From a virus, in IMG/VR virus record IMGVR_UViG_3300031825_000065, positions 1 through 24,730 of that record: a DNA stretch of 24,730 nucleotides. One strand, 5' to 3'. The notes beneath the pieces are model-generated. The model made no database searches, had not been told where the DNA came from, and saw nothing but the letters and a program-made list of their open reading frames with translations. A program made the position numbers and the translations under genes. Of the stretch, positions 3,731-19,206 are shown one piece after another. Numbering within the stretch: the stretch's first letter is position 1; each line of letters begins with the position of its first letter.

Positions 3731-4714
3731 TTAGAGTGAGGTCATAATAGCCAGCGCCTTGTTCTTGAGATCCTCGCCGGGGCCAAACCATGCTGAGTTA
3801 AGGCGGTTGTCGATGCTGGTAGCCCTTGCTTCATGGTCTACGTACTCTGTTACCGCATTCAGGAAGCCCCAGCCCGTACCGGCTACGCCCGTAATGTTAG
3901 AGCCTTGCCCGCCACCGTCGAACATGGAAAGGATCGACTTGAAAGCGCGTGAGTTGCTGATCTTGTCGATTGTCTCAAGATTCACTTCTGCATCCACTGG
4001 CTTGAGCAATTCAAACGCTAGACGTTCTGCGCGTGCCGCGCTGATTTGCTTGTCCGATAGCCGTTTCATGTTCTCTGCGAACCGGTTAAACTCAGTGTGC
4101 ACCAGCCCAAGCTTTGATTTCATTGACTCGGGATTGAACGTGGTCTTGTGTGATACCTTGTGCTGGCCGGATTCGCCTAGTGACATGGAAAGTGTGTTAT
4201 TACACACAACACGCACCGTAGTGAATTTGCCCATTGTGGCGAGCGTGCCATCGGCACCAGTGCACAGGAGTAAATATCCACCGATCTTGTCTCCCGGAAC
4301 CACCTCGCAGTCATCGCCGATGTTGGCAAGCGCCCAAAAGCGACGACCACCGAAGAGCGTTCCCGCCGTTTCGACTGCGAATCCAGCGCCTTGTGTCAAG
4401 TCACGGAAGAATTCGAGCACATCATGGGGTTGGACAACCTTGAATCCATCCCCTACTGTGCCAAGTGGCGCAAACGTATCAGACCGATAAAGTACCTTTT
4501 TGTCCGCTACCTTGCCGCGCACTTTCATGTTGTTGGCTTTGTAGCTGAATTCCACTGGCGCTTCCTGAATTGTCCAATCCATACCAGCGGATACCATCCA
4601 TTCTTCGATGGTTGCCCCCTTCTGGACCTTTTGTCCCAGACCATGCCATGGGGTTTCCCCCAAGTAGGCCATTTCCACGAAACCATTGTTACGTTCTGTC
4701 AATTGATGTGCCAT
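3731..4714 (-). CDS. DUF932 / phage-plasmid-like protein, 327 aa
   Basis: The N-terminus (about residues 14-30, EMAYLGETPWHGLGQ) and the following ATIEEWMVSAGMDW, LYRSDTFAPLGTVGDGF and VVQPHDVLEFF motifs mark the DUF932 (TIGR03299-like) family of plasmids and phages. The 327-aa length is usual. Its biochemical role is not established; such proteins are often found with replication and conjugation genes. The start is supported by GGGGAAAG 6-7 bases upstream. It lies between a 39-aa membrane peptide gene and a GNRA hairpin in the leftward operon. The family's plasmid association is worth noting beside the two parS-like sites. Confidence 0.85.
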   Translation of the reverse strand: MAHQLTERNNGFVEMAYLGETPWHGLGQKVQKGATIEEWMVSAGMDWTIQEAPVEFSYKANNMKVRGKVADKKVLYRSDTFAPLGTVGDGFKVVQPHDVLEFFRDLTQGAGFAVETAGTLFGGRRFWALANIGDDCEVVPGDKIGGYLLLCTGADGTLATMGKFTTVRVVCNNTLSMSLGESGQHKVSHKTTFNPESMKSKLGLVHTEFNRFAENMKRLSDKQISAARAERLAFELLKPVDAEVNLETIDKISNSRAFKSILSMFDGGGQGSNITGVAGTGWGFLNAVTEYVDHEARATSIDNRLNSAWFGPGEDLKNKALAIMTSL

Positions 4715-4726
4715 GATAGCTTTCCC

Positions 4727-4846
4727 CTAAAATGCTTGATGGACTACATTAGAAACCCATGTTTGCACCCATGGCTTGTCATAATTGCGACAAACCCAAA
4801 TCAAGAGTGCGAGCATGGATACGACAAAAAAGAGACGGTCTTTCAT
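4727..4846 (-). CDS. 39-aa single-pass membrane peptide
   Basis: ATG 4846 is preceded by GGGGG 4 bases upstream and the frame ends at TAG 4727-4729, whose G is followed by the ribosome site of the DUF932 gene. The product starts MKDRLFFVVSMLALLIWVC, a basic N-terminus plus one membrane helix, followed by a polar, tryptophan-containing tail. The tight spacing suggests translational linkage to DUF932. No family is recognised. The start codon lies 10 bases from the parS-like site at 4856-4871. Confidence 0.55.
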   Translation of the reverse strand: MKDRLFFVVSMLALLIWVCRNYDKPWVQTWVSNVVHQAF

Positions 4847-4855
4847 GATGCCCCC

Positions 4856-4871
4856 TGTTTCACGTGAAACA
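4856..4871. promoter_or_regulatory. parS: parS-type centromere site 1 (perfect palindrome)
   Basis: TGTTTCACGTGAAACA is a perfect 16-bp palindrome and an exact match to the conserved chromosomal parS consensus TGTTNCACGTGAAACA, bound by ParB of most bacterial phyla. It lies in the gap between the clamp gene and the 39-aa gene. With 15 fixed positions, about 2 x 10^-5 matches are expected by chance in a window this size. ParB binding is inferred; no parB gene is present here. Confidence 0.75.
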
Positions 4872-4873
4872 CT

Positions 4874-4910
4874 TCGTGCAAAAGTGCACGAGATAGGCGC
4901 TCAGCCTATC
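4874..4910 (-). other. Two adjacent perfect inverted repeats beside parS site 1
   Basis: TCGTGC (4874-4879) pairs with GCACGA (4886-4891), and GATAGGC (4892-4898) pairs with GCCTATC (4904-4910). The two stems abut each other, follow the stop of the leftward clamp gene by 14 bases and precede parS site 1. No T-run follows. They may end or process the clamp message, or form part of a partition complex. Confidence 0.5.
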
Positions 4911-4924
4911 CCTTGCATTTTCAG

Positions 4925-5482
4925 TTAATCCCTGAGTGGCATTATCACGCCCAAATATACATCTGGATTGTAGTCATTATCATTTAATACGAGAGCGGCC
5001 TTACTGCCGCGATGATAAACCCGTATGTAAGTGGCTTTTGACTTGCCATGGTATAATTGAGCCGCTTTCTCTAGTTGAAGCAATAGCTCCGGGTTGAATT
5101 GTGCTACTTCGCCTTGTGTGCGCGTTTGGTCGGCAGGTAGCACGCTCTTATAATCAGGGAATTTACCCTCTATTGGCGCATAAGATATATTGTCCCCATC
5201 TGGAAGAGTAATAGTCAAATGGCCTACGTCGAAGACGAGTTTTGCCTCGGCATGTTTGGCCCCGCATAACTTAACAAGCTTATCAATAGTATCATTTGAA
5301 ATGATGAAGTCAGCAGCATAAGGCTGCTCTTCCTGTAGCTTCAAACGTAGGAGTATGGTCCCTGTAGTAGCAACGAGCATGTTCTCTGTATAGAGAACAC
5401 CGTTTAGGTAGTAGCGGATATCCTTCTTCGCGGCAGCGCATTGCGCGGCACGCAGTTCGTTCATATAGATGATGATTTCCAT
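4925..5482 (-). CDS. DnaN-like mini sliding clamp, 185 aa
   Basis: The sequence follows the domain 2 and 3 pattern of the bacterial beta clamp: RYYLNGVLYTENMLVATTGT near residues 23-42, FPDYKSVLPADQ near 108-119, and a C-terminus YLGVIMPLRD like the conserved VMPMR ending of DnaN. Beta clamps are about 370 aa with three domains; domain 1 is missing here and domain 3 is short. The likely role is tethering a polymerase to DNA, or mimicking or blocking the host clamp. The start at 5482 has AGGGG 7 bases upstream. It is preceded by a 77-aa gene and followed by parS site 1. Confidence 0.75.
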   Translation of the reverse strand: MEIIIYMNELRAAQCAAAKKDIRYYLNGVLYTENMLVATTGTILLRLKLQEEQPYAADFIISNDTIDKLVKLCGAKHAEAKLVFDVGHLTITLPDGDNISYAPIEGKFPDYKSVLPADQTRTQGEVAQFNPELLLQLEKAAQLYHGKSKATYIRVYHRGSKAALVLNDNDYNPDVYLGVIMPLRD

Positions 5483-5740: not shown

Positions 5741-6028
5741 TTGCGATTCCTTGTAGCGGGCAGGATTGCCCCGATAGCACACTAGGATCATCCCCAATGA
5801 GCTATCAATGTATCCTGCACCACCTAGCCCGTGTCACCCCTAGCATCCCTGCTTAGAGCGGGTTTGGCGGCATTCCAGCACTCTTAAAGACCCTGTAATA
5901 CCATCTAGCAGTAGCCGATGAGCATAGATGCGTAGTAGTGATTCCCCTTGTTGCCTACCATCTACTTCACGTAAGGCTTGCGCCCACTTCTACAATAGCG
6001 CATCGCTGTCACAATTACAAGAACTATC

Positions 6029-6049
6029 AACCCTTGTCCAGCAAGGGTT
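6029..6049. repeat. Perfect 8-bp inverted repeat next to parS site 2
   Basis: AACCCTTG (6029-6036) and CAAGGGTT (6042-6049) flank TCCAG. It ends 11 bases before parS site 2. No T-run follows it. Confidence 0.55.
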
Positions 6050-6059
6050 TGCGGTCTGT

Positions 6060-6075
6060 TGTTCCACGTGAAACA
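6060..6075. promoter_or_regulatory. parS: parS-type centromere site 2
   Basis: TGTTCCACGTGAAACA is identical to the classical Bacillus parS form and matches the pan-bacterial consensus at every fixed position. It sits in the long non-coding region between two perfect inverted repeats, about 1.2 kb from site 1. ParB binding is inferred from the sequence. Confidence 0.8.
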
Positions 6076-6080
6076 CCATG

Positions 6081-6098
6081 ACTTATACACCTATAAGT
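6081..6098. repeat. Perfect 7-bp inverted repeat with DnaA-box-like core
   Basis: ACTTATA (6081-6087) and TATAAGT (6092-6098) flank CACC. The left arm and loop read TTATACACC (6083-6091), which differs from the DnaA-box consensus TTATNCACA at the last base only. It lies 5 bases from parS site 2. An initiator or operator site is possible. Confidence 0.4.
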
Positions 6099-6410
6099 GG
6101 GGGTAAAATGCCTCATAGCCCACATATGCGTCATTCAATTCACCCAACAAGTACTGCGTATAACAACCATTATGTTAAATAGCACACCATATTATGAGCA
6201 CAATACATCTCATATCACCCATTTGTAACAGAGAGTCTCCGAAAACGCGGGGTTATACTGCGCTAATGGATCACATTGTTACAATTGATGCATAGAAGTG
6301 ACGGAAAGCATGCTTCGAAACCGCAGCGGGAGTCACGTTCCACTATCGGAGTCCTAATCCCAATCCCCCTACAAAAATTCCGGTTCCTATAGAAGAAGTC
6401 CTAAAAGTAA

Positions 6411-6436
6411 TTTTTTGGTCACATGGGCAATATGCT
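6411..6436 (+). promoter_or_regulatory. Weak promoter candidate for the late operon
   Basis: A TATGCT -10 candidate (6431-6436), the same hexamer as in the promoter at 239-244, lies about 30 bases before the first late gene. Only a T-run (6411-6416) is near the -35 position. The AT-rich stretch and the gene start just downstream favour it, but the -35 match is poor. Confidence 0.25.
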
Positions 6437-6465
6437 AAGATGCTTGGCACAAATGGGGCGAGAAG

Positions 6466-7089
6466 ATGACGACCAAGGTTGAGGTAGAGGTACTGGATGG
6501 GGGGCATGATTTGTTCATGCTGGAAGTGGTGCCATATCATCACCAGTTATATTTTTGTTTTACGTGGGATGCGTATCTGGCGTCCAGAAAAAAATTGGAG
6601 TTGGGGGAATATCAGGGGATTATCTGCGATGGAGTGACGACGACATTTACGACCGAGAGTGGGGCGCAATGTTATCTGGTGTGTATCAAAGAGGGGAGAA
6701 TAGACACGATGGTGCATGAATGCTGTCATGTCTGTTTTAATATTTTTGAGACGATAGGGGCTGATCCACGGCAATGTAATAATGAGCCATTTGCGTATTT
6801 GCTGGATTATATTGTGCGGATCATGCGGGAGGTTAATAATGGCGAGGCCGAAGACGAAAGGGATCAAGCAGGAGATTTGTCGGCTGATCGCCTTGGGAAT
6901 ACCGATCCAGTCGATTTTGATGGACGAGGACCCGGAGACGAAAGAAACCACGCCGAAAGCGGGCATGCCGTCTTGGGAAACAATCGTCTCTTGGTTGAAG
7001 ACGGACGAGTTGTTCCGGCTGGATTACGAACAGGCGAGGGTCTTTGGAGCCGATTATTTGGCGGATCGGATGCTGAGTCTGCTGGATGA
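6466..7089 (+). CDS. HExxH zinc metallopeptidase-like protein
   Basis: Residues 84-88 read HECCH, the HExxH zinc site, and NNEPFAYLLDYI (105-116) supplies a probable third glutamate ligand, E107. This arrangement is that of small phage zincin-like peptidases. The conserved part ends at about residue 125. From there to the stop (residues 125-207) the frame overlaps the terminase small subunit by 251 bases in another frame and becomes low in hydrophobic residues, so the tail is probably not conserved. Its place ahead of the terminase suggests virion maturation or host-wall processing, which is inference. Confidence 0.65.
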   Translation: MTTKVEVEVLDGGHDLFMLEVVPYHHQLYFCFTWDAYLASRKKLELGEYQGIICDGVTTTFTTESGAQCYLVCIKEGRIDTMVHECCHVCFNIFETIGADPRQCNNEPFAYLLDYIVRIMREVNNGEAEDERDQAGDLSADRLGNTDPVDFDGRGPGDERNHAESGHAVLGNNRLLVEDGRVVPAGLRTGEGLWSRLFGGSDAESAG

Positions 7090-7282
7090 GTTGCGGGCAG
7101 ATCCCAAGAAAGCGCCGGCTGTGAAGGCGGCGATGGAAGTGTTGAAGTGGCAGACGATGGTACGGAACAGCAAGTATAGTGAACGTAACATTGTGGAAAC
7201 GAAGTTGACGGGACCGATGGAGCCGGAGAAAGTGACGGCGGAGATTCGTCGGATCGAGAAAGAATTGAAACTGGTGAAATGA
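6839..7282 (+). CDS. terS: Terminase small subunit
   Basis: ATG 6839 has GGAGG 7 bases upstream and gives 147 aa, a usual length. The product starts with MARPKTKGIKQEICRLIALG, and PSWETIVSWL reads as the recognition part of a DNA-binding helix-turn-helix. FRLDYEQARVFGADYLADRM and the C-terminal KYSERNIVETKL follow the pattern of small terminases. It recognises the packaging site and presents DNA to the large subunit encoded at 7503. The zinc-motif gene at 7279 overlaps its stop by 4 bases. Confidence 0.8.
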   Translation: MARPKTKGIKQEICRLIALGIPIQSILMDEDPETKETTPKAGMPSWETIVSWLKTDELFRLDYEQARVFGADYLADRMLSLLDELRADPKKAPAVKAAMEVLKWQTMVRNSKYSERNIVETKLTGPMEPEKVTAEIRRIEKELKLVK

Positions 7283-16911: not shown

Positions 16912-19206
16912 GTGGCTGATTCCTTCGTTCGTGTCCCCGCTGATTCAGTTGGCAAAAAGGTAGACGCTACATCACTAGATGTCGGCGCAGATACCGTTTA
17001 TCGTCAACGTATCGTCGTTGGGGATAATGCTGCCACTGCTGAGTTTGCAACGGTCCTTGCTGGTGCTCTAAAGTGTTTCGGAACATTCTCAATTGGCGGA
17101 ACGCCTACCGTCAATGTCAACGGTGGTGTCGCCATCTCTGGTACTGCTATCATCGCTGGCGTCGTCTCTTTTGCGGCAGGCACTATACTGGATTCAATCA
17201 GCGCCACAGTGGGCGTGAAAGGTCAGGTGTCCCTTGCCGCAGGAACAAGTAATATCGGTTTCATCAATAATATCTCGGCAACAGTGGTTGTTTCGGGAAC
17301 TGTTTCACTTGGAGCCAGTACCGCCGTTATCGGCACCATTAATAATATCTCAGCTACCGTTACAGTTGCTGGGAACATCACGGTCGATAAAATCAGTGCC
17401 GCCGTGGTACTTGCTGCCGGCACTGCCAACATTGGCACTATCAACAATATCTCTGCTGCTGTTACTGTTTCCGGCAACGTCACAGTGGACAAGATATCTG
17501 CGACCGCCACGGCCATTATCGGCGGTTTCCTTGATCCTTCGGGACAGCAACGGAACGTAGTCGATTCTGCGAATACCGCTCTAAGAGTTAACGTTGTCGC
17601 AGGCTCAAGCGGCGGCGTGTCTCAGGTGGATGGAACTAGTTTCACATCTCAAGCTGCCAACTTTGTTCCTATTGGGGGGATATTTGATGATGCCGCCACT
17701 GACACCTTGTCAGAAAATGATGCGGGCGTTGTCAGACTAACTACGAATCGCGGTTTCCATGTGAATCTTCGTACTGATGGTGGTACGAAGATGGATGACA
17801 GTACCAATTCTGCCCTTCGTGTCAATGTCGTGGCGGGTGGCGCTGGCGGCGGCGCGGTATTCGGGCAGGTATCAGCCGGCGCTTCTCTGTCCGTTACTAA
17901 TGTGCCTGTCTTGATGGGCGGCAATGATAGTGTCGGTGGTGGTATTGCGCGTACCTTATTGCTAGATACGAGTGGCCGCATCATCCTTGGCGCTGGCGCT
18001 CAGAACATTGGCACAATCAATAACATCTCGGCGGCGGTTGTGCTTGCGGCTGGTGCCAACAATATTGGTACGATCAACAATATCAGTGCCACCATCGGTA
18101 TTACCGGTACGGTAGCTCTAGTCGCTGGCACGGTGATTAATAACATCTCCGCGACTGTCATCGTGGCTGGTGTTGTTTCGTTAGGCGCTGGCACCAACAA
18201 TATCGGGTTCCTAGACAAGATTTCCGCTACCGTCATTGTGGCAGGCGAAATCGCGAATGGTTCTTCCCTGTCCACCACGAATAAGCCAGTGTTGATGGGC
18301 GGTAATGATAGCGCTGGTGGCGCTGGTGGTGTTGCCAGAACACTTCTACTGGATACGAGCGGCAGGATTATTCTTGGCGCTGGCACGAACAATGTGGGTG
18401 CAGTATCAATTGCCGCTGGTACGGCATTGATGGGAGCCGTTTCCCTCGCTGCCGGTACAGCCAACATTGGTAGCATCAATAACATTTCTGCCACGATTGC
18501 CGCTGTGCTAGCGGCAGGCACGGCGAATATTGGGACGATCAATAACATTTCTGCTGCCGTGGTACTGGCGGCAGGGACAGCCAATATCGGCGCAGTTTCC
18601 AATGCTGCCGGTACTGCGCTCATGGGCGCTGTGTCGTTGGCCGCTGGCACGGCGAACATCGGTTTCATCAATAACATTTCTGCGACTGTCGTTGCTGCGA
18701 TCAGCGGTGGCATTGTGGCGCACAGCTTGTCGGTGACGGCTGGGAACGCCCCTCTCATCATGGGGATGCGTGCCCACTTGTCCGCCTCGGCGGCGGTAGG
18801 CAACAAGGCAGCTACCTATACATGGGGTGACAAGTTTGGACGACAAGTTGTCATCAAGAATCATCCAAGTCTCTTGCAGACTGCCTCGCATGGACCTAAA
18901 TGTGTCACTGTATCCACTTCTGCTACCGTCGCTCTTGTGGCTGCTCCGGGTGCTGGTTTGTCGGTATTTGTGACTCAAATAGCATGCACGAATGGATCTG
19001 CTACACTTACGCGGGCTGACGCTTATCCAGCGTCTGCGACTGCATCTTGTGTGACACAGATGTACATGGCTGCGAGTGGTGGCGGGTTCGTGCAGAATTT
19101 CGACCCACCAGTTCAAATCCTGTCAAATACTGCCCTGAATAGCCGCGTCAAGCCCAACGTATCGCAGGCTATTTTCGTGGTTCATTTCTATGTTGGGCCG
19201 AAGTAA
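16912..19206 (+). CDS. Repeat-rich virion fibre-like protein, 764 aa
   Basis: GTG 16912 has GAGG 6 bases upstream. After about 60 residues the product becomes a series of degenerate repeats around VLAAGTANIGTINNISAT. INNISA occurs nine times, with related DKISA/DSISA units, and a longer block (GGNDS..., LLLDTSGRIILGAG) occurs twice. The last 150 residues are non-repetitive and beta-rich. Small-residue repeats with regular N/G turns suggest a beta-solenoid or trimeric fibre. I infer a head or tail fibre; no receptor-binding domain is identified. The repeats use different synonymous codons (see findings). Confidence 0.65.
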   Translation: MADSFVRVPADSVGKKVDATSLDVGADTVYRQRIVVGDNAATAEFATVLAGALKCFGTFSIGGTPTVNVNGGVAISGTAIIAGVVSFAAGTILDSISATVGVKGQVSLAAGTSNIGFINNISATVVVSGTVSLGASTAVIGTINNISATVTVAGNITVDKISAAVVLAAGTANIGTINNISAAVTVSGNVTVDKISATATAIIGGFLDPSGQQRNVVDSANTALRVNVVAGSSGGVSQVDGTSFTSQAANFVPIGGIFDDAATDTLSENDAGVVRLTTNRGFHVNLRTDGGTKMDDSTNSALRVNVVAGGAGGGAVFGQVSAGASLSVTNVPVLMGGNDSVGGGIARTLLLDTSGRIILGAGAQNIGTINNISAAVVLAAGANNIGTINNISATIGITGTVALVAGTVINNISATVIVAGVVSLGAGTNNIGFLDKISATVIVAGEIANGSSLSTTNKPVLMGGNDSAGGAGGVARTLLLDTSGRIILGAGTNNVGAVSIAAGTALMGAVSLAAGTANIGSINNISATIAAVLAAGTANIGTINNISAAVVLAAGTANIGAVSNAAGTALMGAVSLAAGTANIGFINNISATVVAAISGGIVAHSLSVTAGNAPLIMGMRAHLSASAAVGNKAATYTWGDKFGRQVVIKNHPSLLQTASHGPKCVTVSTSATVALVAAPGAGLSVFVTQIACTNGSATLTRADAYPASATASCVTQMYMAASGGGFVQNFDPPVQILSNTALNSRVKPNVSQAIFVVHFYVGPK

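Follow-up and report, generated by a model that had tools for sequence, protein, structure and literature searches.

ParB dimers at parS sites close with CTP, slide along the DNA and link it to ParA and SMC (PMC7053999, PMC8367383). A phage is reported to be held by the same protein; the genome of Bacillus phage phi29 is trapped in the spore through the host ParB (Spo0J), according to PMC9437464, which cites Meijer 2005. The phi29 genome holds TGTTTCACGTGGAACA four times without mismatch. This word is one of the two sites described below (parS2) in reverse complement, and one of its phi29 copies lies in a non-coding gap beside a bidirectional terminator hairpin. The earlier phi29 study reportedly links the entrapment in spores to parS sites on the phage, and the use of a host parS is thus a known principle for one phage family. 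Phages and plasmids that bear Par systems of their own often have centromeres other than the chromosomal parS word.

The DNA analysed here (the window) is an entire IMG/VR virus record, a linear fragment of 24,730 bases that belongs to a P22-like podovirus. It encodes a P22-like portal protein, a Phage_capsid_3 major head protein, the large and small terminase subunits and a holin, together with a DUF932 protein and a sliding-clamp-like protein. Genomes of its relatives measure 44-48 kb, and since the near-complete metagenomic ones (45-48 kb) keep the window's gene order, about half of this phage's genome is probably missing. A search of bacterial contigs with the major capsid protein returned only two distant matches, and hence we assign no host. 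Positions 16912-19206 encode a 764-aa structural protein of repeated NIGTINNISA-type units, and similar repeats occur in the relatives. The features around the two parS sites are these:

3731-4714, minus strand: DUF932 / TIGR03299 phage/plasmid-like protein
4729-4848, minus strand: possible frame of 39 codons, read by eye, that includes a hydrophobic segment and lies between the clamp-like and DUF932 genes
4856-4871, no strand: parS site 1 (parS1), the perfect 16-bp palindrome TGTTTCACGTGAAACA, 0 mismatches to the bacterial consensus
4874-4891, no strand: hairpin adjoining parS1, TCGTGCA-AAAG-TGCACGA
4892-4910, no strand: second hairpin adjoining parS1, GATAGGC-GCTCA-GCCTATC, right after the stop codon of the clamp-like gene
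4925-5482, minus strand: sliding-clamp-like protein (DnaN / phage processivity factor), second gene of the leftward set
5798-6465, no strand: divergent gene-free region holding parS2
6029-6049, no strand: hairpin 1, arm 8, loop 5, AACCCTTG-5-CAAGGGTT, terminator-like on the minus strand with a weak T tract
6060-6075, no strand: parS site 2 (parS2), TGTTCCACGTGAAACA, 0 mismatches to the bacterial consensus
6081-6098, no strand: hairpin 2, arm 7, loop 4, ACTTATA-4-TATAAGT, which holds TTATACACC at 6083-6091
6839-7282, plus strand: terminase small subunit (Sf6-like), which opens the rightward packaging/structural operon

An earlier, sequence-only reading of this DNA had named a parS site at 6060-6075, flanked by an 8-bp inverted repeat at 6029-6049 and a 7-bp one at 6081-6098. 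All three are exactly where it placed them, and the site has the exact bacterial consensus. It is one of a cluster of two, 1.2 kb apart, which differ slightly in sequence and both match the 16-bp palindromic consensus TGTTNCACGTGAAACA with 0 mismatches. Both lie outside host-like genes. parS1, the sole perfect palindrome of at least 16 bp in the window, is set between the clamp-like gene and the possible 39-codon frame, which begins about 10 bp past it. Exact TGTTNCACGTGNAACA thus occurs twice, against 0.0001 occurrences expected from a first-order model of the window.

The same word recurs in phages far more often than comparable palindromes. TGTTTCACGTGAAACA was found in at least 120 IMG/VR stretches, compared with 1 for a composition-matched and 5 for a dinucleotide-matched control palindrome. 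Of 50,697 phage records, 315 matched words around parS, 16-18 bases long, exactly. Redundancy raises this count, as do numerous fragments entered as 'Listeria phage LM 4-...', in which host DNA could be present; three matched palindromes gave 0, 0 and 0 among the same 50,697. The parS2 variant plus its neighbouring bases was matched in 150 phage records, phi29 included. Phages with large finished genomes, among them phi29, Goe1, P100plus, DSS3P8, Lpa804, Woes, Huntingdon and CMP1, also contain the word. Across the viral loci, 46% of parS sites fall outside a rough ORF map vs 12% of random positions (p about 1e-27, assuming independent sites). Phages of ParB-bearing hosts (Bacillus, Listeria, Gordonia, Arthrobacter, Pseudomonas) dominate among the matches listed, none of which is a phage of Escherichia, Salmonella or Klebsiella.

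Some of these occurrences have unusual settings. Several gut Microviridae and Spiroplasma phage 4, with single-stranded DNA genomes of 4-6 kb, hold exact parS words that are very unlikely to be there by chance. On the 117 kb viral contig 3300037518_000322 (L114), which has no ParB HTH domain, a span of about 5 kb contains twelve parS words. Gordonia phages Woes and PatrickStar have parS as the exact midpoint of longer, perfectly paired inverted repeats (about 30-36 bp; L296:1071-1106, L296:1496-1523 and L313:594-625). The outer stems of the three are unrelated in sequence, which suggests that the extended dyad is maintained as such. A weaker excess of extended inverted repeats around parS is seen across 182 phage sites.

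We used HTH_ParB (PF17762), the domain that reads parS, as the marker for ParB. It was absent from all 50 parS-bearing viral contigs searched (15 to 201 kb), and no match above the Pfam cut-off was found in 14 parS-bearing phage records, nearly all of them complete genomes; Butyrivibrio virus Arian gave a single match below the cut-off. The identical search found the domain in 9 of 14 control genomes. ParB_N (PF02195) is also a domain of unrelated phage proteins; it was detected in 4 of the 50 contigs, in 3 of them above the cut-off. The 24.7 kb window, with about half of the genome probably missing, has no match to HTH_ParB, ParB_N or AAA_31 (ParA-type). In the parS-bearing phages studied, a site without its protein is the rule, and the natural reader of the site would therefore be the host's ParB.

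On balance, the window's two sites are probably host-type parS carried by a phage and loaded by the host's chromosomal ParB, which would tie the phage DNA to the segregation machinery. In favour of this are the near-zero expectation for two exact sites, the enrichment of the word over matched palindromes, the intergenic positions, the missing HTH_ParB in contigs, records and window alike, the phi29 precedent and the prevalence of ParB-bearing hosts among the listed phages. From such evidence we infer ParB binding, spreading, partition and a benefit to the phage. After infection, host ParB dimers would bind parS1 and parS2, close around the DNA as CTP clamps, slide outward and coat several kilobases. 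The coat would anchor the phage DNA to ParA/SMC, and hence to the segregating host origins. The likely benefit would be that an unintegrated phage genome is positioned, inherited evenly and retained while cells divide, starve or lie dormant.

The reading by host ParB is weakened by the missing half of the genome, which could hold a ParB, with or without ParA, that maintains a plasmid-like prophage. The fragmentary window leaves space for such a module, and the closest named relative gives it a precedent. This is podovirus ctDrO704 (MW202512.1), circular and 44.4 kb long, which shares 13 homologous proteins with the window (identity of about 71% for the major capsid protein, 54% for the terminase and 53% for the portal) and encodes a 282-aa HTH_ParB protein (L194:3940-4788). 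That protein, however, has no recognisable ParB_N domain, and the ctDrO704 genome has no parS word within 2 mismatches, nor is there a clear repeat around the HTH_ParB gene that could serve as its own ParB site. HTH_ParB is also absent from all 43 metagenomic relatives found by the major capsid protein, four of which have 71-77% capsid identity and are 26-48 kb long. Together with the frequent use of non-chromosomal centromere words by phage and plasmid partition systems, this makes a partition module of the phage's own rather unlikely.

Lack of conservation in the clade also weakens the reading by host ParB. Exact parS is absent from the 43 major-capsid relatives (one of them, G071, has a single site with one mismatch) and from 26 relatives by TerL, and 26 relatives by DUF932 have no parS with up to one mismatch. 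This last result led us to reject a link between parS and the DUF932 gene, seen in two other viral loci (L082 and L111). At the equivalent place, three relatives (G059, G065 and G067) have a divergent region with few genes, 0.5-0.8 kb long and without parS, and the window's intergenic region has only short chance matches to the same region of four relatives. Since capsid, TerL and DUF932 relatives all have no exact sites, the parS sites were acquired in the window's own lineage, probably recently. In G067, the region equivalent to that of parS2 holds a perfect palindrome, TTTTCCCGGGAAAA (L280:686-699), that includes the core of the site bound by Noc and precedes a helix-turn-helix gene by 37 bp; it was found at no other place among the loci examined.

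Such a gain fits a trait that comes and goes with host or life style, and it leaves room for a functionless site. The sites would then be a fragment recently picked up from a host chromosome, or else a word that arose by chance, and the lack of conservation in the clade speaks for this. We nonetheless consider this very improbable, given two slightly different copies 1.2 kb apart, neither in host-like genes, and the strong enrichment of the parS word in phages generally.

The region around parS2 was said by the sequence-only reading to be a 725-base gene-free stretch between divergent operons. The divergent operons are there, a leftward one and the rightward terminase/structural one, with a gene-free region of 668 bp between them. 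With hairpins defined by an arm of at least 7 and a loop of 3-10, this region has 2 vs 0.29 in shuffles (P about 0.03). They lie on either side of parS2, while those at parS1 follow it in tandem, so that 4 of the 18 such hairpins in the window adjoin the two sites. In a post hoc test, 0 of 3000 shuffles had parS flanked on each side by a hairpin no more than 35 bp away. Elsewhere, 21 of 146 parS sites at viral loci have a hairpin within 45 bp, compared with 7.7 at random positions in the same loci. As the sites prefer intergenic gaps, where terminators lie, the association probably reflects position, and the hairpins probably do not belong to the centromere. The 91-nt stretch folds with an unremarkable energy (z -1.26), and no RNA family or tRNA was found at the hairpins.

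The position of parS2 in a divergent regulatory region, and of parS1 10 bp upstream of a possible small frame, would also suit ParB acting as a roadblock or silencer between the operons, or the sites acting as decoys that draw ParB off the host centromere. Pseudomonas ParB can repress promoters near high-affinity parS, according to PMC5521831. However, with two sites per genome, little ParB would be titrated before amplification, and numerous phage parS sites sit in narrow gaps where both neighbouring genes run the same way, and not at divergent promoters. Regulation or a decoy as the role of these sites is in our view improbable. The same region also has an inverted pair of TTGTAACA words, at 6223-6230 (plus) and 6277-6284 (minus), a possible repressor operator. 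The word occurs 3 times in the window vs 0.6 expected, and judged on sequence the pair is a better operator candidate than the two repeats that the sequence-only reading had proposed as part of a possible operator hub.

That reading had also offered a combined centromere and origin, of which the centromere half has good support, with two exact parS sites, far beyond chance, of a class strongly enriched in phages, and the origin half does not. TTATACACC gives no evidence for DnaA because such nonamers are at chance level in the window (33 with up to one mismatch vs 39 expected). The gene-free region is slightly AT-rich (GC 0.46 vs 0.51) and has neither a significant repeat array nor a clear AT-rich unwinding stretch. 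The suggested GC-skew check does find the cumulative minimum of the window near 6.0-6.5 kb, with a clamp-like gene nearby, as an origin joined to a centromere and bound by DnaA might predict. However, the turn coincides with the switch of gene direction at the divergent operons, and a similar turn occurs at the divergent region of G067, which has no parS. We give a combined centromere and origin next to no probability. A DnaA-dependent origin as such was rejected as well, with one inexact box in place of a box cluster above chance, as was CtrA-type control of the kind described in an alphaproteobacterial phage (PMC9437464), as TTAA-N7-TTAA occurs once in the window vs 6 times expected.

Beyond this locus, we suggest more tentatively that host-type parS without a phage ParB may be a widespread, repeatedly acquired trait by which unrelated phages of ParB-bearing bacteria exploit host segregation as a cost-free means of partition, positioning or persistence, the window representing one lineage-specific acquisition. 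We found no survey of parS on phages in the open-licence literature and no earlier description there of the breadth of parS without ParB across unrelated phages. This pattern is of more interest than the single locus in the window. If true, it would make host chromosome segregation a recurrent target of phages, beyond phi29 and sporulation, with a bearing on carrier states, the retention of non-integrating phage genomes and the intracellular site of phage replication.

Compared with known systems, the window shares with bacterial chromosomal parS the identical 16-bp consensus and the presence of more than one site close together. Unlike them, its sites are borne by a phage, with no parAB in the fragment and no evidence of an oriC. 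Phage-borne ParABS modules, as in extrachromosomal mycobacterial prophages (PMC7157519) and P1, likewise place a centromere-like site on a phage, but they use the phage's own ParA/ParB, none of which was found in the fragment. phi29 is an unrelated phage for which dependence on Spo0J has been reported. Yet phi29 and its relatives (Salasmaviridae; host ParB = Spo0J) carry the exact 16-bp host parS word, as the window does, and the B103-like relative Goe1 has no HTH_ParB, again like the 24.7 kb fragment. By this analogy, the window's sites are best read as phage parS of the phi29 type.
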